From the NCBI GenBank assembly GCA_002172675.1, contig NETF01000207.1, positions 1 through 32,181 of the forward strand: a stretch of 32,181 bases of DNA. Reading direction: 5' to 3'. The position numbers were made by a program, and so were the translations under genes. The notes under the pieces are model-generated. The model had not been told where the DNA came from. It did no database searches and was given only the letters and a program-made list of their open reading frames with translations. The number at the start of each line of letters is the position of its first letter. Position 1 is the stretch's first letter. Of the stretch, positions 7,354 through 18,740 are shown in pieces. This DNA comes from an unicellular cyanobacterium SU3 (lineage in GTDB: Bacteria; Cyanobacteriota; Cyanobacteriia; Cyanobacteriales; Microcystaceae).

Positions 7354-8493
7354 ATGGTTAATCAAATAAAAACAATAAAAACGATTTTAGAATACGTAGA
7401 AAATGACAGGGAATTATCAGAAAGCGATGGGATCGTGCTTCTGTCCCAAACTGATGAAAGCACAATTGAGGAAATTCGTCAAACTGCCGATAAACTCCGT
7501 CAAAAACAAGTAGGAAACACCGTCACTTATATTATTAATCGTAATATAAACTTTACCAACATTTGTGAGCAACATTGTAATTTTTGTGCCTTTCGACGAG
7601 ATGCAAGGGATGAGGGGGCATTTTGGCTAAATACAGAGCAAATTATTGAAAAAGCAACGGATGCAGTAAAAAAAGGGGCGACAGAAATTTGTATGCAGGG
7701 TGGTTTAAACCCCGAAGCCAAAATACAAGGCAGTTCTTTGCAATATTATCAACAATTAATTATTAGTCTAAAACAAGCCTTTACTCACCTCCATCTACAC
7801 GCTTTTTCTCCCCAAGAAATCCAATTTATTGCCAGGGAAGATAATCTCAGTTATGCTGAGGTAATTATAGGCTTGAAAAATGCTGGTTTAGGGTCAATGC
7901 CAGGAACAGCAGCAGAAGTTTTAGACGATAAAGTCAGACGGATTATTTGTCCTGAAAAAATCAACACTCAAACCTGGTTAGAGATTATTGGCTTAGCCCA
8001 TTCCCTAGGATTATATACTACCAGTACCCTATTATCTGGACATATAGAAACCCGCGAACAACAAATACACCATTTAAGTCATTTAAGAAACTTACAAAAA
8101 ACAGCCATTGAAAACAATTATCCAGCCAGAATAACAGAATTTATCATCTTACCTTTTGTGGGAAAAGATGCCCCTCTAGCCCTACGAAACCGCGTCAAAC
8201 GAGATCAACCCAGTCTTAAAAATACTTTATTACTAACCGCAGTGTCGCGAATTTTCCTAGGAAAATGGATACCTAATCATCAACCCAGTTGGGTAAAATT
8301 GGGCTTAAACGGTGCAACGGAAGCCTTGCGATGGGGGTGTAACGATATTGGCGGAACCCTCATGGAAGAACATATTACCACCATGGCAGGGGCGATGGGA
8401 GGAACTTGTATGGAAGTCGAAACCCTACAACAAGCGATCGCATCTTTAAACCGTCCCTATCAACAAAGGACTACCTTATATGACAACGTTTAA
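7354..8493 (+). CDS. cofH: CofH, 5-amino-6-(D-ribitylamino)uracil-tyrosine 4-hydroxyphenyl transferase (deazaflavin F0 synthase subunit 2)
   Basis: A 379-residue radical SAM enzyme that, with CofG, makes the 7,8-didemethyl-8-hydroxy-5-deazariboflavin chromophore F0. In cyanobacteria F0 serves as an antenna cofactor of DNA photolyase. The radical SAM cysteines are Cys71, Cys75 and Cys78 in CEQHCNFC. Further family signs are the SMPGTAAE segment in mid-protein and the GCNDIGGT and MEEHI motifs towards the C-terminus. I prefer the ATG at 7354; a TTG six codons earlier (7336) is in frame but has no better ribosome binding site, and neither has a clear one. CofG is not in the window. The gene precedes the phosphonate operon on the same strand by 179 bases and is probably independent of it. 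Confidence 0.92.
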
Positions 8494-8612
8494 CTATTAA
8501 AGAAAGTTCTTTTTGCAAAGAATACCAACAACTTAGTCAACTTGTCCGAACAAATTGATAATCAAAATTTATTCCAAAATTAAAAGAGGTTTAAATTTCC
8601 CTCCTTAAGCTA

Positions 8613-8627
8613 TGGATAATCTATCCA
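8613..8627 (+). promoter_or_regulatory. Candidate operator dyad upstream of phnD
   Basis: TGGATA (8613-8618), three bases, then TATCCA (8622-8627) form a perfect 15-bp dyad 45 bases upstream of the phnD start. It overlaps GATAAT (8615-8620), a plausible -10 hexamer. A symmetrical site over a promoter is what a GntR-type repressor such as the PhnF encoded at the operon's end would need. I found no second copy of this dyad. A regular three-repeat Pho box was not found here. Confidence 0.35.
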
Positions 8628-8672
8628 AAAACTGAGCATTATCTTTTATTCAAGTTTAATCTGGGAAAATCT

Positions 8673-9569
8673 ATGTTACGTCGTCAATTATTGTTAGGGG
8701 CATTACTAATATTGCCTTTATTCGGGGGATGTGCTAACAACTCGCAAACTTCAGACAATTCTTCATCAGCTAAGTCTGAAATTATTATGGGTTTAATTCC
8801 CGCAGAAGACAACGAAGAAATGCTGGCTAAATTTGAGCCAATGCGCGCTCATTTAGAAGAAAAAATCGGAATGCCAGTTAAAGTCTTTCAAGCCACTGAC
8901 TATGCAGGTGTCATTGAAGCAATGAAACGCGATCGAGTGGATATTGCTTGGTTTGGTCCGCTTTCCTACGTTTTAGCTGAACAAGAAGCAGAAGCGGAGG
9001 CGTTTGCCGTAGGAGTCAAAGAAAGTGGCACTTCTACCTATCAAAGTATGATTTTTGTGCCTGGAGATTCTCCTGCTAAATCCATCGCTGATTTAAAAGG
9101 GGCCGATGTGGCATTTGTTGATCCGGCTTCTACCTCAGGATCGTTAGTACCGAGTTATATGGTAAAGAAAACCACAGGAGAAATGCCTGAAGAATTTTTT
9201 GGCAAAGTTACCTATGCTGGTTCTCACGATGCTGCACAGTTAGCCGTGAAAAATAAGACAGTGGCAGCCGCCGGCAGTAATGATATTACTCATGACAAGA
9301 TGTTAGAAAAGGGTTTAATTAAAGGAAATGATTTACGTATTTTAGAAACCTCTGATCCCATTCCGGGTTCCCCGTTAACCTACCGTAGTGATTTAGATCC
9401 CGAAATTAAAGCCCAGATAAAAGAAGTTATTTTAAATGCTCATAATGAGATTAAAGTGACAGGTTATGGTACCTTAGCCCGTTATGAAGAAGTCACGGCC
9501 CAAGACTATCAAGTGATTCGGGATATTGTGCAAGAGTTAGGTCTGCAAAAAGAGGAAATTCTTAAATAA
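8673..9569 (+). CDS. phnD: Phosphonate ABC transporter substrate-binding lipoprotein PhnD
   Basis: A 298-residue periplasmic binding protein that captures phosphonates, and in some relatives phosphite or phosphate, for import by PhnC-PhnE. The N-terminus is a lipoprotein signal: twin Arg, a hydrophobic core and the lipobox LFGGC with the lipidated Cys at residue 20. Family features include the MGLIPAEDNEEM segment near the mature N-terminus, DIAWFGPLSYV, the GADVAFVDPASTSGSL ligand-binding region, and the later GSPLTYR. GGGA a few bases upstream of the ATG is a weak ribosome binding site. It is the first gene of the operon, 11 bases ahead of phnC. Which phosphonate it prefers cannot be told. 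Confidence 0.95.
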   Translation: MLRRQLLLGALLILPLFGGCANNSQTSDNSSSAKSEIIMGLIPAEDNEEMLAKFEPMRAHLEEKIGMPVKVFQATDYAGVIEAMKRDRVDIAWFGPLSYVLAEQEAEAEAFAVGVKESGTSTYQSMIFVPGDSPAKSIADLKGADVAFVDPASTSGSLVPSYMVKKTTGEMPEEFFGKVTYAGSHDAAQLAVKNKTVAAAGSNDITHDKMLEKGLIKGNDLRILETSDPIPGSPLTYRSDLDPEIKAQIKEVILNAHNEIKVTGYGTLARYEEVTAQDYQVIRDIVQELGLQKEEILK

Positions 9570-9580
9570 GTATTGTTTTC

Positions 9581-10342
9581 ATGACTACCATTAACTTTAA
9601 AGGCGTGACGAAAACTTTTAACAACGGTTTTCAAGCAATTCAGAGAACAGATTTAACCATTCATCCAGGGGAGTTTACGGTTATTCTGGGGTCTTCAGGT
9701 GCCGGAAAATCAACGCTGTTACGTATGGTAAATGGCTTAGAAACCCCCTCCCAAGGGGAGATTTTCATTGATAAACGGAAGTTAACCCCACAAAATCAGC
9801 GTCATATTCGCGCTAAAGTAGGGATGATTTTCCAACAGTTTAACCTAGTTAATCGTCTCAATGTCATGACCAATGTGTTAATTGGACGTTCTTATTATCG
9901 TCGTTGGTGGGAAAGTCTTTTTTATCTTTTTACCAAACAAGATTATGAGTTAGCCCAATGGGCCCTAGAAAGGGTTGAATTGACAGATAAAGCTTGGCAG
10001 AGGGCCAATGATTTATCGGGAGGACAACAACAACGGGTCGCTATTGCTCGTGTTTTGGTACAAAAACCCCAGATTATTATTGCTGATGAACCAGTGGCTA
10101 GTTTAGATCCTGCCACGAGTATAGAGATTCTAGAACTGCTTTTCAACATCTGTAAAAATGATGGGGTAACAGTATTAGCCAGTTTGCACCAAGTTAATTT
10201 AGCCATGCAGTTTGCCGATCGCATTATTGGCATTAAACAAGGCAAAGTCATCTTTGATGCTCAACCTGCTAATTTGCTCCAGAATAGTCTTCTAGAGACA
10301 ATTTATCACAAACAAGACCATGAAAATATCCCTGTGGCCTAG
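9581..10342 (+). CDS. phnC: Phosphonate ABC transporter ATP-binding protein PhnC
   Basis: The 253-residue ATPase of the phosphonate importer. The Walker A motif GSSGAGKST is at residues 37-45, a Q-loop follows (IFQQFN), the ABC signature is LSGGQQQRVAIAR, and Walker B is IIIADEP followed by the D-loop SLDP and the H-loop His in SLHQ. The length is normal. The 3' end overlaps phnE by 23 bases, so the two are likely translationally coupled. It works at the cytoplasmic face with the two PhnE permeases that follow. Confidence 0.96.
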   Translation: MTTINFKGVTKTFNNGFQAIQRTDLTIHPGEFTVILGSSGAGKSTLLRMVNGLETPSQGEIFIDKRKLTPQNQRHIRAKVGMIFQQFNLVNRLNVMTNVLIGRSYYRRWWESLFYLFTKQDYELAQWALERVELTDKAWQRANDLSGGQQQRVAIARVLVQKPQIIIADEPVASLDPATSIEILELLFNICKNDGVTVLASLHQVNLAMQFADRIIGIKQGKVIFDAQPANLLQNSLLETIYHKQDHENIPVA

Positions 10343-11123
10343 ACATTGGCCCACCAAAAATGGATTACCGACTCATGGGAGCATTGTCTTTGTTGTCATC
10401 GTTATCATCATTTTGTTAGTAACGGCTCCCCTGGTAGAATTTAATCCCATTACTATCATTAAATCTATCGATAATTTCTTTGCTTTTGTATCTAATTTAC
10501 TGACAATTCCTGAATGGAGTTATGTGCCTACCCTTACCAATAAAATGCTCGAAACGATTGCTATGGGTTTTTTAAGTACAGTGTTTTCTTTTTGTTTGAG
10601 TTTACCACTAGGAATATTAGCAGCCAGAAATAGTAGTCCTTTACCGATTGTTTTTCATGGTGTCAGAAACTTACTTAGTTTGATGAGAGCGTTACCTGAA
10701 ATTGTTTGGGCGTTACTGTTTGTTTCTGCTTTGGGTTTAGGTCCATTTCCTGGTATTTTAGCCCTTACGTTTGTGACAACGGGATTTATGGGTAAATTCT
10801 TTGCTGAAAGTATTGAAGTGGTTGATGTGGGGATGATTGAAGGGGTAGAAGCAACGGGAGCAAATTGGTTACAAACGGTTCATTTTTCGATGTTGCCTCA
10901 AGCAATGCCGGATTTTATTGGGACAACTCTTTATATTCTTGATAATAATATTCGTTCAGCGACGGTACTAGGTTTTGTCGGTGCCGGTGGAATTGGTTAT
11001 GAGTTAATTTCTTCTATTCGTTTATTTAATTATGGTCGTTTAATTTTAATTGTTTTGGCAATTTATTTGATGGTGACTATTTTAGATCATTTATCAACTC
11101 AATTGCGTTCTTATATTATTTAA
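10320..11123 (+). CDS. phnE: Phosphonate ABC transporter permease PhnE (first copy)
   Basis: A 267-residue inner-membrane permease with about six hydrophobic helices. The cytoplasmic EAA-type coupling loop is seen as EGVEATGANWLQT with a following LP.A....I segment. The C-terminal GFVGAGGIGYEL is characteristic of the PhnE/MetI-type fold. Its start lies inside the end of phnC, 23 bases before the phnC stop. A second, related permease follows after eight bases, so the channel is probably a PhnE1-PhnE2 heterodimer, as in other cyanobacterial C-P lyase operons, rather than a homodimer. Confidence 0.95.
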   Translation: MKISLWPRHWPTKNGLPTHGSIVFVVIVIIILLVTAPLVEFNPITIIKSIDNFFAFVSNLLTIPEWSYVPTLTNKMLETIAMGFLSTVFSFCLSLPLGILAARNSSPLPIVFHGVRNLLSLMRALPEIVWALLFVSALGLGPFPGILALTFVTTGFMGKFFAESIEVVDVGMIEGVEATGANWLQTVHFSMLPQAMPDFIGTTLYILDNNIRSATVLGFVGAGGIGYELISSIRLFNYGRLILIVLAIYLMVTILDHLSTQLRSYII

Positions 11124-11131
11124 TCGAAAAT

Positions 11132-11911
11132 ATGATCATGTCTAAGTTACCCTCGAAACCGTTTAACTGGGTCTTTGTCATCTTTGGCATCGTTTTATTT
11201 TTAATGATTATTTGTTTAGTTTATTTACAGTTACCCTTCGGGAAATTTTTCCGTAGCGGTGAAGATATGGCAGAATATTTAAGTCGTTATACTCGTCCAG
11301 ATTTTAGTGAGTTAACTAAATATATTTGGTTAATGATCACTACAGTGATTATTGCTCTTTGGGGGACGGTTTTAGCGCTTAGTTTAAGTTTTTTTTTGGC
11401 ACCCATAGCCGCTAAAAATCTCTCACCTAACCCCTTAATTTATCGAATCGTCAGAGAAATTCTTAACTTTTTTCGTGCCATGCCGGATTTAGTTTTAGCC
11501 TTGATTTTTGTAGTCGCATTAGGGTTAGGACCTCTCCCTGGTTTTTTGGCTTTAGGAATTCATACGACGGGTTTTTTAGGCAAATTTTTAGCCGAAAGTA
11601 TGGAACGAGTTGATAAAGGAGTTTATGAGGGCGTAAGTGCCACTGGAACTAATACTTTACAGTTAATTATGTATGCTGCTTGGCCATCTATTTTACGAGA
11701 GGCGATCGGTTATACTCTGTATATTTTTGATCGGAATGTTCGTATGGCAACGGTATTAGGTTTAGTGGGGGCTGGCGGTATTGGTGTAGAATTAAATACA
11801 ACGTTGCGATTTTTTGATTATGATAAATCTGCTACTTTAATTCTGATTATTCTGATGACAATTATTGCTATTGACTATTTATCGACTTGGCTAAGGAAAC
11901 AAGTTTTATGA
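11132..11911 (+). CDS. phnE: Phosphonate ABC transporter permease PhnE (second copy)
   Basis: A 259-residue paralogue of the preceding permease. It shares the LALIFVVALGLGPLPGFLAL helix region, the coupling loop EGVSATGTNTLQL and the C-terminal GLVGAGGIGVEL. It differs in having a longer periplasmic stretch after the first helix, around residues 36-60. ATG codons at 11132 and 11138 are both possible starts and neither has a strong ribosome binding site. The stop TGA overlaps the next gene's start as ATGA, a coupling signal to phnG. Confidence 0.95.
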   Translation: MIMSKLPSKPFNWVFVIFGIVLFLMIICLVYLQLPFGKFFRSGEDMAEYLSRYTRPDFSELTKYIWLMITTVIIALWGTVLALSLSFFLAPIAAKNLSPNPLIYRIVREILNFFRAMPDLVLALIFVVALGLGPLPGFLALGIHTTGFLGKFLAESMERVDKGVYEGVSATGTNTLQLIMYAAWPSILREAIGYTLYIFDRNVRMATVLGLVGAGGIGVELNTTLRFFDYDKSATLILIILMTIIAIDYLSTWLRKQVL

Positions 11912-12375
11912 TGACTGATGAACGTTCTTTATGGGTTAAAGCTTTAACGGCTCATTCTTTAGAAACTATCTCTAATTTAGCTCAAGAAATTAGCAAAAAT
12001 TGGCAGATCAAATATAAGGTTTTACCGCAGAATGGCTTAAGTCTTTTAACCTTACAAGATGGGGTATTTCATGAACCTTATTATCTTGGAGAAATTCCTA
12101 TTTCTCATGCTTACTTAAGTCTTATTAATCAACAAGGAGATAGTTATGATGGGGCAGCCCAAGTGATGGGTGATTCTGACAATTTAGCGGTTGCTTTAGC
12201 AGTTTGTGATGCTGTCATGGCTCATCAACTTCAAGGGTGGGAAAAAGTCGCCCATTATATTGAATTGGGTATGAAAAAAAGAGCAGAAGAAAATCAGATT
12301 AGGGGGGCAATGTTAGCTAAAACAAAAGTAAACTTTTCTTTGTTAAGTCAGGAGGAGAACGATGCTGAAAATTAA
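11908..12375 (+). CDS. phnG: C-P lyase complex subunit PhnG
   Basis: A 155-residue subunit of the PhnGHIJ core complex. With PhnI, PhnH and PhnL it forms 5-phosphoribosyl-like alkylphosphonate by displacing adenine from ATP. Recognisable parts are the DGVFHEPYYLGEIPISHA segment and GAAQVMGDSDNLAVALAV leading into the A..D helix. I set the start at the ATG at 11908, which overlaps the phnE stop and has AAGGA at 11893-11897. A TTG at 11887 would extend it seven codons into phnE without better support. The end overlaps phnH by 14 bases. Confidence 0.92.
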   Translation: MMTDERSLWVKALTAHSLETISNLAQEISKNWQIKYKVLPQNGLSLLTLQDGVFHEPYYLGEIPISHAYLSLINQQGDSYDGAAQVMGDSDNLAVALAVCDAVMAHQLQGWEKVAHYIELGMKKRAEENQIRGAMLAKTKVNFSLLSQEENDAEN

Positions 12376-12925
12376 TTCTATTTGGCAACCCCAAACCCAA
12401 CAAAAGATTTTTCGTCAACTCCTCCATTGTTTTAGTTATCCTGGTGAAGTTGTCAGTTTAAAAGAACAGATAGGAACCGATTCAATTATAGTAGCAATTC
12501 TATCTACGATTTTGGATCAAACTGTTACTTGGAACGATGAAGATAATCTAATTTCACAGAGCGATCGCCTTTTATTACAAAGTCTTTTAAACAGTACAGA
12601 AAAGGCTCAATATGTGGTAAAAAATGCTAGTTCTACTCCTGTAGATGACTTTAAGATTAATATAGGGGATTTATGCAATCCAGAAAAGGGAACAACCCTT
12701 ATTTTACAAGGAAAATCTCTAGGAAAAGGAGACATAAACTTACACTTAAGTGGGCCAGGTATTCCTCATAGTAAAAACATCTTATTACAAGGATTTGACA
12801 CCCATTGGTTTACCCTGAGAAATCAATGGAATGGCAATTTTCCTTTAGGGGTGGATTTAATTTTAGTAGATGCTGAGCAATTGTTAGCTTTACCACGCAC
12901 GATTATAATTTCTTTAAATCATTAA
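12362..12925 (+). CDS. phnH: C-P lyase complex subunit PhnH
   Basis: A 187-residue subunit of the C-P lyase core complex. The N-terminal IFRQLLHCFSYPGEVVSL pattern matches the family's FR.LL...S.PG motif, and LSGPGI in the C-terminal half is also typical. PhnH resembles PLP-dependent transferases in fold but lacks their cofactor chemistry. The ATG is preceded by a strong AGGAGG about seven bases upstream, located inside the end of phnG. The gene is 25 bases from phnI. Confidence 0.9.
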   Translation: MLKINSIWQPQTQQKIFRQLLHCFSYPGEVVSLKEQIGTDSIIVAILSTILDQTVTWNDEDNLISQSDRLLLQSLLNSTEKAQYVVKNASSTPVDDFKINIGDLCNPEKGTTLILQGKSLGKGDINLHLSGPGIPHSKNILLQGFDTHWFTLRNQWNGNFPLGVDLILVDAEQLLALPRTIIISLNH

Positions 12926-12950
12926 TGTTCATAATTTGGAGAATTCGTCA

Positions 12951-14048
12951 ATGGGTTATGTAGCCATACAAGGAGGAGAAGAGGCGATCGCAGAAGCAAT
13001 TAATCTCTTAGATATGTTGCGTACAAAGGACAAAAAAAATGCCCCTTTATCTTCCGATACTATCGAAAATCAATTACATTTCTTACACAGTCGAGTCTTA
13101 TCAGAAGGGGGTTTATATCATCCCGAATTAGCCTCTCTAGCCATTAAACAAAGTGCAGGAGACATCCTCGAAGCAGCGTTTTATCTTCGCGCTTATCGTT
13201 CTACTAAACCCCGTTTAGGAGAAACCCCTGTCCATCATGGAGAAAACTTAAGATTAATTCGTCGTATTTCTGCTGCCTTTAAAGAAATTCCAGGGGGACA
13301 AATGTTAGGGCCAACTTCTGATTATTTACAGCGATTATTCCGTTTTAATTTATTAAATGAATCCCCCGATGAATTTCGTAATTTTGCACAGCATTGGCTG
13401 AAAAATATCCCCGATGAAAACTTACCCACTACGTTTCCCAAAGTATTAGATAGTTTAAGAACAGAAGGTTTATTAACCCCTGTTACTAATAAACCGACAT
13501 TACCCTTTGATATTACCCGTGAACCCTTAATTTTCCCGGTTTCTCGCTCAGCAGCATTAGCAACCATGGCCAGAGCAGAAACCGGTTCGATTTTAGCGAT
13601 CGCCTATTCTAATATGAGGGGTTATGGTGACGTACACCCCACCGTAGCAGAGTTGAGAGTGGGTTATTTACCCGTTATGTTACCCCATCCCATCACCGGA
13701 GACTTACAAGAAGTGGGAGAGGTATTAATGACCGAATGCGAAATTGTAGCGATGTATAACAGTAAAGATAAGGAGAGTGTACCCACCTTTGGCTTAGGGT
13801 ATGGTGCCTGTTTTGGTCATAACGAAGTCAAAGCGATCGCTATGGCTATCTTAGATCGCGCTTTACAGAAAGGACAAACCCACGGCATCGAAAACCCCTC
13901 AGAAGATCCCGAATTTGTCCTATTACACATCGATGGTGTGCAATCTATGGGTTTTGCGTCTCACTACAAAATGCCTCATTATGTCACGTTTCAATCCGAT
14001 CTCGATCGCCTTCGTACAACTCAACAGAAAGGTGTATCAAAGTTGTAG
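12951..14048 (+). CDS. phnI: C-P lyase complex subunit PhnI (nucleosidase)
   Basis: A 365-residue protein. PhnI is the subunit with purine nucleosidase activity that, in complex with PhnG, PhnH and PhnL, attaches the phosphonate to ribose C1 of ATP. The start GYVAIQGGEEAIAEA matches the family opening (YVAVKGGEKAI in E. coli). TTGGAG (12936-12941), nine bases before, supports the ATG at 12951; that TTG could be read as an earlier in-frame start but is better explained as the ribosome binding site. Other family blocks are RRISAAFKEIPGGQMLGPT and YGACFGHNEVKAIAMA. It contains several HIP1 sites. A palindromic repeat follows its stop codon before phnJ. Confidence 0.95.
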   Translation: MGYVAIQGGEEAIAEAINLLDMLRTKDKKNAPLSSDTIENQLHFLHSRVLSEGGLYHPELASLAIKQSAGDILEAAFYLRAYRSTKPRLGETPVHHGENLRLIRRISAAFKEIPGGQMLGPTSDYLQRLFRFNLLNESPDEFRNFAQHWLKNIPDENLPTTFPKVLDSLRTEGLLTPVTNKPTLPFDITREPLIFPVSRSAALATMARAETGSILAIAYSNMRGYGDVHPTVAELRVGYLPVMLPHPITGDLQEVGEVLMTECEIVAMYNSKDKESVPTFGLGYGACFGHNEVKAIAMAILDRALQKGQTHGIENPSEDPEFVLLHIDGVQSMGFASHYKMPHYVTFQSDLDRLRTTQQKGVSKL

Positions 14049-14052
14049 CTTT

Positions 14053-14116
14053 GTAGGGTGGGCAAAGTTCTCTAGTTTACGGGTAGTCGAAATAACTCTC
14101 TGATTTGCCCACCTAC
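14053..14116. repeat. Palindromic repeat between phnI and phnJ
   Basis: GGTGGGCAAA (14057-14066) is matched perfectly by TTTGCCCACC (14104-14113), with partial extension by GTAG / CTAC outside and a 37-base loop. It begins five bases after the phnI stop and fills most of the only large gap (109 bases) inside the operon. It looks like a short interspersed cyanobacterial repeat. In RNA it could form a hairpin that protects the upstream mRNA or lowers expression of phnJ onward. No T-run follows, so full termination is unlikely. Confidence 0.65.
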
Positions 14117-14157
14117 CGTCTTACGATTTTGTTTATCAACAGCCCTTTAGTCAAACC

Positions 14158-15036
14158 ATGACAACAGAAACCTTAAACAGCACAAAAAACTACGGTTATC
14201 AATTCGGGTTTATTGACGAATATGCTAAAAAAGAAATTCGTCGCAGTCTTCTCAAAGCGGTGTCTATTCCAGGGTATCAAGTGCCTTATGCTTCGAGGGA
14301 AATGCCGATGGCCAGGGGGTTTGGTACAGGGGGGCTACAAATAACCCTATCGTTGGTAGGTGTAGGAGATACTCTAAAAGTGATTGATCAAGGTAGCGAT
14401 GACTCAGTTAACGCTGTCAATATTCGTAAATTTGTCGCTCAAACTTGTCCAGGAGTCAATCTCACCAAAAAAACCGTCGAAGCAGATATTATTCAAACCC
14501 GTCATCGTATCCCTGAAATACCGATGAAAAAAGGACAAATTTTGGTGTTACAAGTACCTTATCCCGATCCTTTAATTGTCGTTGAAGCGAACGAGGAAAA
14601 ACGGAAAATTATGCACGGGGAAAAAGATTACGCGCGTTTATGGGTCAAACTCTACGAAGACATCGTTAAATTCAAGGAAATCACCATTTCTCATCGTTAT
14701 CCTACCAGTGTTAACCATCATTATGTCATTGATCCGTCCCCTATTCCTCGGTTTGATGTGCCTAAATTAAACAATTCCCCTGTTTTACATTTGTTTGGAG
14801 CCGGTAGAGAAAAGAAAATTTATGCTATTCCTCCTTATACTCAAACTGCACCGTTAACCTTTAAAGATATGGGGTTTCGAGTTGAAGATTTTACCGATAA
14901 AAAAGGAGAAAGACGCGCTTGTAGTCGTTGTGGTTCAACAGACAGTTATTTAGATGAATTACAACACAAAACTGGGGAAAAAATCTATCAATGTTCTGAT
15001 AGTGACTATTGCAACTCTCAATTAAATCTAAACTAA
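14158..15036 (+). CDS. phnJ: Carbon-phosphorus lyase catalytic subunit PhnJ
   Basis: The 292-residue radical SAM enzyme that breaks the C-P bond of ribosyl alkylphosphonate phosphate, giving alkane and ribosyl cyclic phosphate. The unusual C-terminal cluster motif is present: Cys255, Cys258, Cys279 and Cys285 (C-x2-C-x20-C-x5-C). This matches E. coli Cys241, 244, 266 and 272 with one residue fewer in the long gap. Gly39 in IPGYQVP corresponds to the E. coli glycyl-radical residue Gly32. REMPM and GTGGLQ follow. All residues needed for activity as I know them are kept. A KKGERRA stretch just before the first Cys makes the protein slightly longer than E. coli's. phnK starts 10 bases downstream. 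Confidence 0.97.
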   Translation: MTTETLNSTKNYGYQFGFIDEYAKKEIRRSLLKAVSIPGYQVPYASREMPMARGFGTGGLQITLSLVGVGDTLKVIDQGSDDSVNAVNIRKFVAQTCPGVNLTKKTVEADIIQTRHRIPEIPMKKGQILVLQVPYPDPLIVVEANEEKRKIMHGEKDYARLWVKLYEDIVKFKEITISHRYPTSVNHHYVIDPSPIPRFDVPKLNNSPVLHLFGAGREKKIYAIPPYTQTAPLTFKDMGFRVEDFTDKKGERRACSRCGSTDSYLDELQHKTGEKIYQCSDSDYCNSQLNLN

Positions 15037-15046
15037 TTAAAAACTT

Positions 15047-15880
15047 ATGGAAAAAATACTAGAAGTTAGGGAATTAACTAAAATTTATGGTAAGGGTTGC
15101 TCTCATTGTATTAAATCTACAGGAGCAGAATATAACAGAAATATTTGTCCCCATTGTGGCAGTATTGTCGCCACTTATAACCTTAATTTTGATCTCTATC
15201 CAGGGGAAATTTTAGGCATTATGGGAGAGTCTGGGAGTGGTAAATCAACCCTGGTTAAAATGCTTTATTTTGATGAAAAACCTACCTCTGGAAAAGGGAT
15301 TTTTTCGGCTCAAGGGGAAACTTATGACCTATTTCAACTCAATGCTGCTCAAGGAAGATGGTTACGTAATAATAAACTAGGCATGGTTTATCAAAATCCC
15401 CATTTAGGCTTAAATTTTCGGGTATCTGCTGGTGGGAATATTGCTGAAAGATTATTGATGAATGACTGTTTTGAGTACGCAAAAATTCGTCAGAAAGCGA
15501 AGGAATTACTTGATCGCACAGAATTTCCGATGGCAAGAATGGATCAATTACCGGGGCAATTTTCTGGGGGAATGCAGCAACGGGTACAAATTGCTTGCGC
15601 TTTAGCAACCGAACCCCCCTTACTACTTTTAGACGAGGTAACAACAGGATTAGATTTATCGGTACAAGCGCGTATTCTTGATTTAATTCTACAATTACAA
15701 CAACAATTAAATGTTTCAATGATTGTGGTTTCTCACGATTTAGGAGTTATTAAATTGTTAGCAGATCGAACTTTAATTATGAAACAAGGTCGAATTGTAG
15801 AATCGGGTTTAACGGATCAAGTGTTAGAAGATCCTCAACATCGATACACTCAACAATTAGTTTCGTCTGCTCTTTATTAA
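15047..15880 (+). CDS. phnK: C-P lyase ABC ATPase PhnK with a four-cysteine insert
   Basis: A 277-residue ABC-type ATPase that docks on the C-P lyase core complex rather than on a membrane transporter. Walker A is GESGSGKST, the signature is FSGGMQQRVQIA, and Walker B is LLLLDEV followed by TTGLDLS. AGGNIAERL and the C-terminal VVSHDLGVIKLLADR and VESGLTD match E. coli PhnK closely. Unlike E. coli PhnK, it has an insert after the first strand with Cys18, Cys21, Cys34 and Cys37 (C-x2-C-x12-C-x2-C, the last pair in CPHCG), a zinc-ribbon pattern. Walker B is followed by Val where Pro is common (DEV instead of DEP). Its own start is separated from phnJ by 10 bases. Confidence 0.93.
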   Translation: MEKILEVRELTKIYGKGCSHCIKSTGAEYNRNICPHCGSIVATYNLNFDLYPGEILGIMGESGSGKSTLVKMLYFDEKPTSGKGIFSAQGETYDLFQLNAAQGRWLRNNKLGMVYQNPHLGLNFRVSAGGNIAERLLMNDCFEYAKIRQKAKELLDRTEFPMARMDQLPGQFSGGMQQRVQIACALATEPPLLLLDEVTTGLDLSVQARILDLILQLQQQLNVSMIVVSHDLGVIKLLADRTLIMKQGRIVESGLTDQVLEDPQHRYTQQLVSSALY

Positions 15881-15906
15881 ATTTATTTCTTTAGTTATCA
15901 TAAATT

Positions 15907-16629
15907 ATGAGAAATAACCTTATTTTAAAAATAGAGAATTTAAGTAAACGCTTTTTTCTCCATGAACAACAAAAATTTATTCCTTCGGCTCACAATATTT
16001 TTCTTGAAGCTTTTTCTGGAAAAATCACCGCAATAACAGGAGAGTCTGGTGTGGGAAAATCGAGCATTTTAAAATGTGTTTATGGGACTTATTTAACTAG
16101 CGAAGGGTCTATTTTTTACTATACTAAAGACAAAAAATGCCTAGATTTAACAAAAGTAAGTGAACAAGAAATGCTTAGTTTACGTAAAACTGATATTAGT
16201 TTTGTTACTCAATTTCTGAACTGTTTACCCAGAAAATCTACCATAGATGTCGTAGCAAAACCTCTTTTTGATTTAGGAATGGATCAAAAAGAAGCTAGAG
16301 AAAAAACAAAAAATCTTTTAGCAGAAATTAAACTACCTGAAAGATTATGGAATTTGTCTCCGAGTACCTTTTCAGGGGGAGAAAAACAACGGGTAAATAT
16401 TGCCAGAGGGATGATTTTTTCTCCCCGTCTTTTACTTTTAGACGAACCCACAGCTAGTTTAGATAAGACTTCAGCAGAAAGAGTTGTTAAAATTATTGAA
16501 CGAATTAAAGCATCTGGGGCAGCAATTTTAATCATTCTTCATGATCCTGATTTAGTTGAAAGATTGGCTGATTTTCAGGTTTATTTATCCTCTGAAAATA
16601 GTCAGATTACAAGCAAAGTATTAACTTAG
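15907..16629 (+). CDS. phnL: C-P lyase ABC ATPase PhnL
   Basis: A 240-residue ABC-type ATPase of the C-P lyase pathway. In vitro work on the E. coli system shows PhnL is needed with PhnG-H-I to make the ribosylated phosphonate. Walker A is GESGVGKSS, the signature is FSGGEKQRVNIARG, Walker B is LLLLDEP followed by TASLDK, and the H-loop His is in LHDP. SFVTQFL in the Q-loop region fits PhnL. It has no zinc-ribbon insert, unlike its neighbour PhnK, so the insert is specific to one of the two ATPases. Confidence 0.93.
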   Translation: MRNNLILKIENLSKRFFLHEQQKFIPSAHNIFLEAFSGKITAITGESGVGKSSILKCVYGTYLTSEGSIFYYTKDKKCLDLTKVSEQEMLSLRKTDISFVTQFLNCLPRKSTIDVVAKPLFDLGMDQKEAREKTKNLLAEIKLPERLWNLSPSTFSGGEKQRVNIARGMIFSPRLLLLDEPTASLDKTSAERVVKIIERIKASGAAILIILHDPDLVERLADFQVYLSSENSQITSKVLT

Positions 16630-16671
16630 TTTATCCTAATTTATCGACTTAATTATTAGAAATTAAAAACA

Positions 16672-17829
16672 ATGAAAACTTATTTTACAAATGCTCAAAT
16701 TATTCTCAAAGATCAAATATTAGAATCAGCTTCTCTTTTAATCGAAGATGGAGTTATTCAAGCAATTAATCCTCATACACCAATTAATGTAGAAGAAATT
16801 AATTTACAGGGACAATATTTAATGCCGGGGATGATTGATGCTCATTGTGATGCCATAGAAAAAGAAATAGAACCCAGGACAAATACATTTTTTCCCTTAG
16901 ATTTTGCCATCGCTCAAATTGATAGAAAAAATGCGATCGCTGGCATTACCACACCGTTTCATAGTATTTCTTTTGCTCATGAAGAGTTAGGGGTAAGAAA
17001 CAATAAAATGGCAGCAGAAATTGTTCGAGGAATTCATCAATATCAACCGTTTGCCTTAGTTGATAATCGGGTTCATTGCCGTTATGAAATTACCGATCCT
17101 ACCAGTTTACCTATCCTCTTAGACTTATTAGGAGAAGATTCTGTTCATTTATTCTCTTTAATGGATCATACTCCAGGACAAGGACAATTTAAAGACTTAC
17201 AAGCGTATCGGGATTATTTAAAAAATACCTATAAAAAATCAGAGACTGAAACTGATGTCATGGTGGCGAAAAAATTAGATAATGCACAAGGGTCTCAAGA
17301 CCGAATAAAAACTCTAGTAACTAAAGCTCATCTCCATAATGTAGCGATTGCTTCTCATGATGATGATACACAAGAGAGAATAGAAACTATGGCAAATTTA
17401 GGCATTACTATAAGTGAATTCCCGATTAATTTACCCACTGCCAAAAAAGCAATTGAAATGGATTTACATACTATTTTTGGCGCACCGAATATTTTAAGAG
17501 GGAAAAGCCAAAGTGGTTCGATGAAAGCTATTGAAGCTATTACTAATAATGTTGCGAGTTGTTTATGTTCTGATTATTCTCCTGCTACCTTATTAATGGC
17601 AACTTTTCGTCTGCCAACTCTCTCTCATTTAACGTTACCAGAAGCGATCGCTCTTGTGACTGCTAATCCGGCAAAAGCACTTTTATTAAGCGATCGCGGT
17701 GACATTTCTCTGGGAAAAAGAGCCGATTTAATTGTAGTACAAACGATTAATAATTTACCCCAAGTGACGCAAACCTGGGTCAATGGTGTTAAGATTTATG
17801 GTTGTTCTTATAATAATCACAATAACTGA
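16672..17829 (+). CDS. phnM: Alpha-D-ribose 1-methylphosphonate 5-triphosphate diphosphatase PhnM
   Basis: A 385-residue amidohydrolase-superfamily enzyme that removes pyrophosphate from ribosyl phosphonate triphosphate, producing the substrate of PhnJ. The metal-binding start LMPGMIDAHCDAIEKEIEPR is present in the correct place (about residues 50-69). HNVAIASHDDDT carries the later His/Asp ligands, and SDYSP near the C-terminus holds the catalytic Asp region. The C-terminal GKRADLIVV strand is typical of the superfamily. The stop TGA (17827-17829) overlaps the inferred CTG start of phnF by three bases. Several HIP1 sites lie in the gene. Confidence 0.95.
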   Translation: MKTYFTNAQIILKDQILESASLLIEDGVIQAINPHTPINVEEINLQGQYLMPGMIDAHCDAIEKEIEPRTNTFFPLDFAIAQIDRKNAIAGITTPFHSISFAHEELGVRNNKMAAEIVRGIHQYQPFALVDNRVHCRYEITDPTSLPILLDLLGEDSVHLFSLMDHTPGQGQFKDLQAYRDYLKNTYKKSETETDVMVAKKLDNAQGSQDRIKTLVTKAHLHNVAIASHDDDTQERIETMANLGITISEFPINLPTAKKAIEMDLHTIFGAPNILRGKSQSGSMKAIEAITNNVASCLCSDYSPATLLMATFRLPTLSHLTLPEAIALVTANPAKALLLSDRGDISLGKRADLIVVQTINNLPQVTQTWVNGVKIYGCSYNNHNN

Positions 17830-18587
17830 CGAAACATAAAACTAAATATTTCTTATATCAAAAAATAGCCGATATCTTAATTAGTAATATTAATCAAAAA
17901 AAGTATATACCCAATGAAGTATTACCTTCTGAAAAAAAATTAGCCGAAAAATATAAAGTTAATCGTTCCACGATTCGTCAAGCGATAAATATTTTAATTG
18001 AAGAAGATTTGGTTTATCGTCGCCAAGGTAGTGGTACTTTTGTTAAAGATAATAAACTGAACTATTCTCTTAACGATCAATCTAATTTTACACAAAATCT
18101 TATAGAAATAGGCTACTTACCTTGTTTAAAAATTCTTAGTTCTAAATTAATTTCAGCCCCTTTAAGTGTTGCGAATAATCTTAAAATTGATAAAGATGAT
18201 CATGTTTTTAAAATAAAAACTATTCGTTCTGCTTTTTTTTCTACGGAAGAAATTAATGATAATGAAATTAAGCCTTTATGCTTAAGCACTTCCTATTTTG
18301 TGGAAAGGAAATGTCCTAAATTATCAAGTTTAATCTATCAAACGAATTCCATTTATAAATTATTGAAGAATCAATATAATATTAGTCCTTATCGAACTAA
18401 GAATATCGTTGAAGTAAGTCTATCAAACCGAGAAGATAGTCAATATCTTAATATTAAAAAAAACAGCCCTATCTTGATATCTATTAGTTTAGTAAAAGAT
18501 TCTGATGAAAGTTTTTTTGAATATACTGTTAGTCGTTTTTCTGGAGAGATGGTCTCCTTTGAAATTTCTTTCCCTCCTATTCTTTAG
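17826..18587 (+). CDS. phnF: GntR-family (HutC/UTRA) regulator PhnF, apparently with a CTG start
   Basis: From CTG at 17826 the frame encodes 253 residues with the full plan of a GntR/UTRA regulator. Residues 8-73 form the winged helix-turn-helix: YFLYQKIAD, then LPSEKKLAEKYKVNRSTIRQ, then YRRQGSGTFV. Residues from about 80 on form the UTRA ligand-binding domain. PhnF proteins with this plan repress phosphonate operons. From the TAA at 17823-17825 to codon 62 there is no ATG, GTG or TTG, and the first conventional start (TTG at 18009) would delete almost all of the DNA-binding domain. The CTG overlaps the phnM stop as CTGA, in the position where ATGA would be expected. There is no Shine-Dalgarno site, so coupling to phnM translation is likely. 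Alternatives are a lost start codon (incipient pseudogene) or a sequencing error. The domain identity is firm; the start mechanism is inference. Confidence 0.8.
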   Translation: MTKHKTKYFLYQKIADILISNINQKKYIPNEVLPSEKKLAEKYKVNRSTIRQAINILIEEDLVYRRQGSGTFVKDNKLNYSLNDQSNFTQNLIEIGYLPCLKILSSKLISAPLSVANNLKIDKDDHVFKIKTIRSAFFSTEEINDNEIKPLCLSTSYFVERKCPKLSSLIYQTNSIYKLLKNQYNISPYRTKNIVEVSLSNREDSQYLNIKKNSPILISISLVKDSDESFFEYTVSRFSGEMVSFEISFPPIL

Positions 18588-18740
18588 CAATGGTGGAGCA
18601 ATCGGTTCCGTTGCAAGAATTTTCAAAAAGTACAATTACTCTCAGGGAACTCTTAACGATGCTTTTACATCCTATAGGAGTAGACTATTAACCTCACTAG
18701 GCTACGGAGTCATCTTAAATCTGAGAGTCAAAAACGATTA

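Follow-up and report, generated by a model that had tools for sequence, protein, structure and literature searches.

The phn block and the open frame of its last gene

The window, by which we mean the whole stretch of 32,181 nucleotides analysed here, is an entire contig of a 5.6-Mb draft genome of 208 contigs, which belongs to the genus Crocosphaera. phnF is the last gene of its phn block (Table 1); the names of the other genes of the block are those that we assume from their order and look. Read directly from the sequence, the frame of phnF is closed upstream by a TAA, and the first codon thereafter is a CTG that overlaps the TGA stop of phnM in the form CTGA. From this CTG, translation stays open for 253 codons until the TAA at 18585-18587. 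The first ATG, GTG or TTG within the frame is codon 62, the TTG at 18009, and the list of open reading frames that gives phnM at 16672-17829 holds a 192-aa ORF from this TTG as the sole standard-start ORF in the phnF frame. The original prediction, namely a frame that opens right after the TAA at a CTG overlapping the phnM stop, with 61 further codons free of ATG, GTG and TTG ahead of the TTG, holds as read.

Table 1. Features at the phnM-phnF junction and in the phn block of the window
Feature	Position	Strand	Basis or remark
phn block phnD C E1 E2 G H I J K L M F	8486..18644	+	between a CofH-like gene and rodA/ftsW
phnM, upstream neighbour	16672..17829	+	ORF list, Pfam
In-frame TAA upstream of phnF	17823..17825	+	sequence read directly
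CTG at the position of the relatives' ATG, overlapping the phnM stop	17826..17828	+	sequence; comparison with relatives
phnM stop TGA	17827..17829	+	stops of G004 and G002 align (by eye) with 17818-17820
phnF	17826..18587	+	253 codons from CTG to stop TAA; GntR HTH and UTRA; TIGR02325 162.6 bits
GntR winged helix-turn-helix	17853..18044	+	Pfam, residues 10-73
UTRA ligand-binding domain	18126..18551	+	Pfam, residues 101-242
UTRA-only 192-aa ORF from TTG, without HTH; probable mis-call	18009..18587	+	ORF list, Pfam, TIGR02325

Among its 253 codons phnF has five that read ATG, GTG or TTG; when the codons were shuffled, 25% of the shuffles left none in 61. A gap of 61 codons without a standard start is thus not rare on its own in such AT-rich sequence, and therefore the weight of the case rests on the relatives. 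Thirteen of the 61 codons lie one base away from ATG; the CTG is the first of them and an ACG the second, whilst those reading ATA, ATC or ATT fall inside the helix-turn-helix (HTH). No Shine-Dalgarno-like stretch was seen by eye ahead of the CTG, and folding of the RNA at the phnM-phnF junction gave no structure beyond that of shuffled sequences (z -0.01). A frameshift from phnM into phnF was also considered and was rejected, as no slippery sequence was found by eye.

Domain content and identity of the regulator

The product read from the CTG matches the Pfam GntR domain with 70.4 bits (E 1e-19; cut-off 27 bits) and the Pfam UTRA domain with 74.8 bits (E 7.7e-21), and the version read from the TTG matches UTRA alone. 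The GntR winged HTH that had been proposed for the 61 codons is thereby confirmed. Against TIGR02325, the NCBIfam equivalog for PhnF, the CTG product scores 162.6 bits, above the cut-off of 156.8, and the TTG product scores 98.5 bits, below it. Six relatives with ordinary starts score between 116.3 and 176.9 bits, a range within which the phnF of the window falls; five of these six lie below the cut-off and four were entered without their first residues, and the cut-off is not sharp here. Moreover, phnF is linked to C-P lyase genes, as it adjoins phnM and the phnD-L homologues upstream form a cluster common to other cyanobacteria.

PhnF in the sense of TIGR02325 is a regulator of C-P lyase operons. 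The gene in the window is like it in both domains, in score and in its phn neighbours, but differs in that it is without a standard start and that its frame directly overlaps phnM. The gene is a full-length phnF whose product, a GntR/HutC-type regulator, would be expected to act on the phosphonate operon as a repressor. The 192-aa ORF from the TTG is probably a mis-call and not a gene in its own right; gene callers limited to ATG, GTG and TTG would plausibly report a regulator without its DNA-binding half.

Start codons of related loci

All 35 related loci with an N-terminus that were compared have an ATG, GTG or TTG as a potential start upstream of the first tyrosine of the HTH, and in 33 of them an ATG lies at most 16 codons ahead of it. 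The set is made up of the six best loci besides the window, 26 from the search of the order, and L078, L090 (Stenomitos) and L092 (Nostoc mirabile); 11 weaker loci, order matches without a locus and L093, which has no N-terminus, were excluded, and the 35 include more distant GntR/UTRA proteins that may not be phnF proper. In L020, the full copy of G239, and in L092 an ATG stands 10 codons before the tyrosine, and the CTG of the window likewise stands 10 codons before it. The distance is 11 codons in L004, L021 and L022, and 8 in L003, L078 and L090. A search of plasmids with phnF gave 1227 records, all below 60% identity, and the enterobacterial ones annotated as PhnF, with start codons taken as annotated, align from residue 1 of the query.

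The CTG is thus not conserved, with a standard start in 35 of 35 relatives. We infer that the ancestral phnF start was a standard codon (ATG in the nearest relatives) which is now the CTG at 17826. The unusual trait of the gene is the lack of any standard start ahead of the HTH, set against 35 related loci that all have one; phnF is full-length, and the start codon is the part that differs. That the CTG would lie where a start is expected had been claimed in the original prediction, and this is upheld, in that the HTH is part of the gene and its start is to be placed at 17826, give or take a few codons. The comparison with relatives that it had called for yields an ATG at exactly the CTG position in two loci and none that begins elsewhere.

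A wrong base in the draft genome would produce the same picture, the real codon then being ATG or another standard start. One base is enough for this, the assembly is a draft of 208 contigs, and the named relatives found in the genus are MAGs; however, the site is not a homopolymer and phnF has no other disruption of its frame, and we consider such an error unlikely. It is very improbable, in turn, that translation begins somewhere else, be it at the ACG at 17829, at an ATA or ATT inside the HTH, at the TTG at 18009, or at an out-of-frame ATG (17783 or 17798) with a frameshift. These codons are present, and a proteogenomic study of Nostoc 7120 reports ATA and ATT starts, with CTG listed among the typical ones (PMC8557916). 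However, the in-frame ATA, ATC and ATT codons (from 17865) would cut off the first part of the HTH, before which every one of the 35 relatives has a standard start, whilst the frame of the ATGs at 17783 and 17798 runs, by eye, into a stop at 17837 and would yield an N-terminus that is hydrophobic and does not resemble that of the relatives.

The end of phnM

In the window phnM is three codons longer than in the sister genomes G004, where it ends in TAA, and G002, where it ends in TGA, and its own TGA overlaps the CTG with the geometry of an ATGA junction. The codon aligned with the stop of the sisters (17818-17820) is CAC in the window and the extension lies within 17812-17829, as judged from an alignment made by eye over the few bases beyond window position 17811, where the blastn match ends. 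The longer phnM could be due to chance or could be a compensating change. In a stronger version, which we find rather unlikely, the shift of the phnM stop and the weak CTG would have evolved together, and a start that is otherwise dead would be rescued by the overlap. Once phnM had lost its old stop, terminating ribosomes would have come to lie exactly on the CTG; this codon would not function on its own, and the repressor would arise solely as a side product when phnM is translated.

Rate, composition and constraint

There are no stops or frameshifts in the 253 codons of phnF, and the inactivating changes beyond the start codon by which we would recognise a pseudogene are absent. The branch of the window phnF is the longest in a seven-taxon tree, at about 1.04 substitutions per residue, and by a crude count some 24 nonsense changes would be expected on it under neutrality. 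Since no inactivating change has occurred on this long branch and the PhnF score is within the range of the relatives, constraint on phnF lasted at least until recently. The GC content of phnF (0.269) is the lowest of 15 genes compared, that of phnM being 0.351. The ratio of phnF to phnM branch length is 3.5 for the window genome versus 1.9 for the rest of the tree, which is suggestive only, as the terminal branch of Stenomitos reaches 4.2 and several rows lacked a few N-terminal residues.

Distribution and loss of phnF

Within the order, phnF matches at E<=1e-12 were found in 53 of 388 genomes. The best of them besides the window are 43% (G239), 41% (G148 and G276), 40% (G021) and 36% (G017) identical. 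A search of the family (50 genomes, the own genome included) returned phnF matches only in the own genome, G021 and G017. None of the eight other genomes of the same genus has phnF at E<=1e-10; a weak match (3.7e-4) is present in G007, of the same genus. Searching contigs with the PhnF protein brought up no close relative from a named organism.

A phnM at least 60% identical to that of the window is present in 11 of the 388 genomes (own included), five of which have phnF at E<=1e-12. At this threshold it is absent from the other six (G002, G004, G005, G182, G367 and G339), some of which are incomplete (G005 85%, G339 92%, G004 93%). The phnM of the sister Crocosphaera without detectable phnF is about 90% identical. 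No phnF was detectable in the 1.5 kb after phnM in G002 and G004, and the G005 contig ends inside phnM.

Partial copies were seen in two further genomes. G239 has an HTH-only PhnF remnant, a 94-codon open frame directly after phnM (L078:2116-2400), and, on a different contig, a complete phnF that is divergent from phnD. In Nostoc sp. WHI, the C-terminal third of phnF is found alone after phnM within the flank examined (L093:7282-7617). Nostoc mirabile (L092), unlike Nostoc sp. WHI, has phnF whole, and Iningainema tapete (L091) has no phnF within the flank examined. The remnants in G239 and Nostoc sp. WHI suggest a phnF that is apparently decaying beside phnM; they are truncated, whereas the gene in the window is full-length. 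One study describes phnF as missing from Trichodesmium IMS101 and from a Synechococcus strain, both of which degrade phosphonates, but states that phnF is present in most strains with the cluster (PMC5955973). On the distribution given here, phnF is dispensable and easily lost.

It is accordingly a serious possibility that phnF of the window has itself recently lost its start, through a change of ATG to CTG or in a rearrangement beside phnM. Little useful PhnF would then be made, the phn operon would be left to other control, and the coding sequence would not yet have decayed. The failure to detect phnF in six of the 11 genomes with a close phnM, and after phnM in G002 and G004, argues for such a loss, as do the truncated copies in G239 and Nostoc sp. 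WHI, the phosphonate degraders published as lacking phnF, and the high AT content and long branch of the gene. Against it stand the intact frame and the profile score within the range of relatives, so that any loss of phnF must be recent. Moreover, going by mutation spectra, random loss of an ATG would give ACG or ATA more often than CTG.

Possible use of the CTG

In the reporter experiments of one study, no GUS was obtained from CUG with either of two promoters, be it in tobacco chloroplasts or in E. coli, which likewise favours loss of the start, with the caveat that one promoter also gave very low CUG transcript in chloroplasts (PMC9845219). The same source counts 20 ORFs (0.024%) with an annotated CUG start in 69 model genomes. 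Initiation complexes on CUG are described as less stable, and this is offered as the reason why CUG is not a common start (PMC11497404). A non-exhaustive search of the literature brought up no cyanobacterial gene with a proven CTG start.

The infC gene of E. coli is autoregulated through IF3, a link for which phnF of the window has no equivalent. The two genes are alike in having a rare start codon, that of infC being ATT (named in PMC5472188). The sigR gene of Streptomyces has been characterised and, according to that source, depends on its weak non-standard start, GTC; it encodes a regulator, the level of which would be lowered by the unusual codon, as would be the case for phnF. However, the sigR start is proven by experiment, whereas phnF of the window is known solely from its sequence and has relatives with standard starts.

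Our tentative preference is that the CTG is still used, weakly, to initiate PhnF in coupling with phnM. Ribosomes that finish phnM at its TGA would come to rest over the CTG, move back by one base and reinitiate there with fMet; the few PhnF dimers made in this way would suffice for a repressor. The absence of any inactivating change despite the long branch, together with a phnM stop that has moved onto the CTG, supports use of the codon. The match of its position with the starts of relatives, the profile score and the non-standard starts of Nostoc 7120 and sigR weigh on the same side. The sister genomes without phnF, the lack of conservation of the CTG, the AT-rich and fast-evolving gene, the lack of a Shine-Dalgarno stretch or of RNA structure and the failed CUG reporter speak against it. 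Use of the CTG and recent loss of the start are nearly equally likely, with a base error less so. The original prediction had offered the first two as alternatives; the premise that they share is sound, and the choice between them is left even by the sequence. The low repressor level and the derepression that it attached to them are inferences of what each would entail.

If the CTG works, codons that fail alone as starts may become usable to bacteria through a stop-start overlap, and annotation confined to ATG, GTG and TTG would deprive real regulators of their DNA-binding domains. If it fails, the window shows a regulator caught at the outset of its loss. phnF is missing from many cyanobacterial phosphonate operons, which release methane. 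With one gene from one draft genome to go by, the wider weight of the case is limited.

The site of the phn block and the region upstream of phnD

The phn block, of about 10 kb, is absent from this site in the close congener G006, in which similarity to the window breaks off where the CofH-like gene ends (8485) and is found again from 18645 on, ahead of rodA. The gap between the CofH-like gene and rodA is about 0.4 kb in G006, 232 bases in G004, 246 bases in G008 and about 1 kb in G005. The phn genes of G002, G004 and G005 are found on contigs other than those of the CofH-like and rodA genes, and in G002 some 10 kb lie between phnH and phnI. The site of the phn block in the window is unusual.

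In a search for operators over stretches upstream of phnD and phnF, no HutC-like GT-N-TA-N-AC core or palindrome was common to the phnF-bearing genomes compared. The region upstream of phnD in the window contains an imperfect TCAACTTGT-ccga-ACAAATTGA and a TGGATA-atc-TATCCA, both of which may be chance. Also upstream of phnD, the stretch at 8560-8672 is similar, by eye, in the sisters without phnF. It contains repeat-like words such as CTTAAGCT, and words of this type may be Pho boxes.
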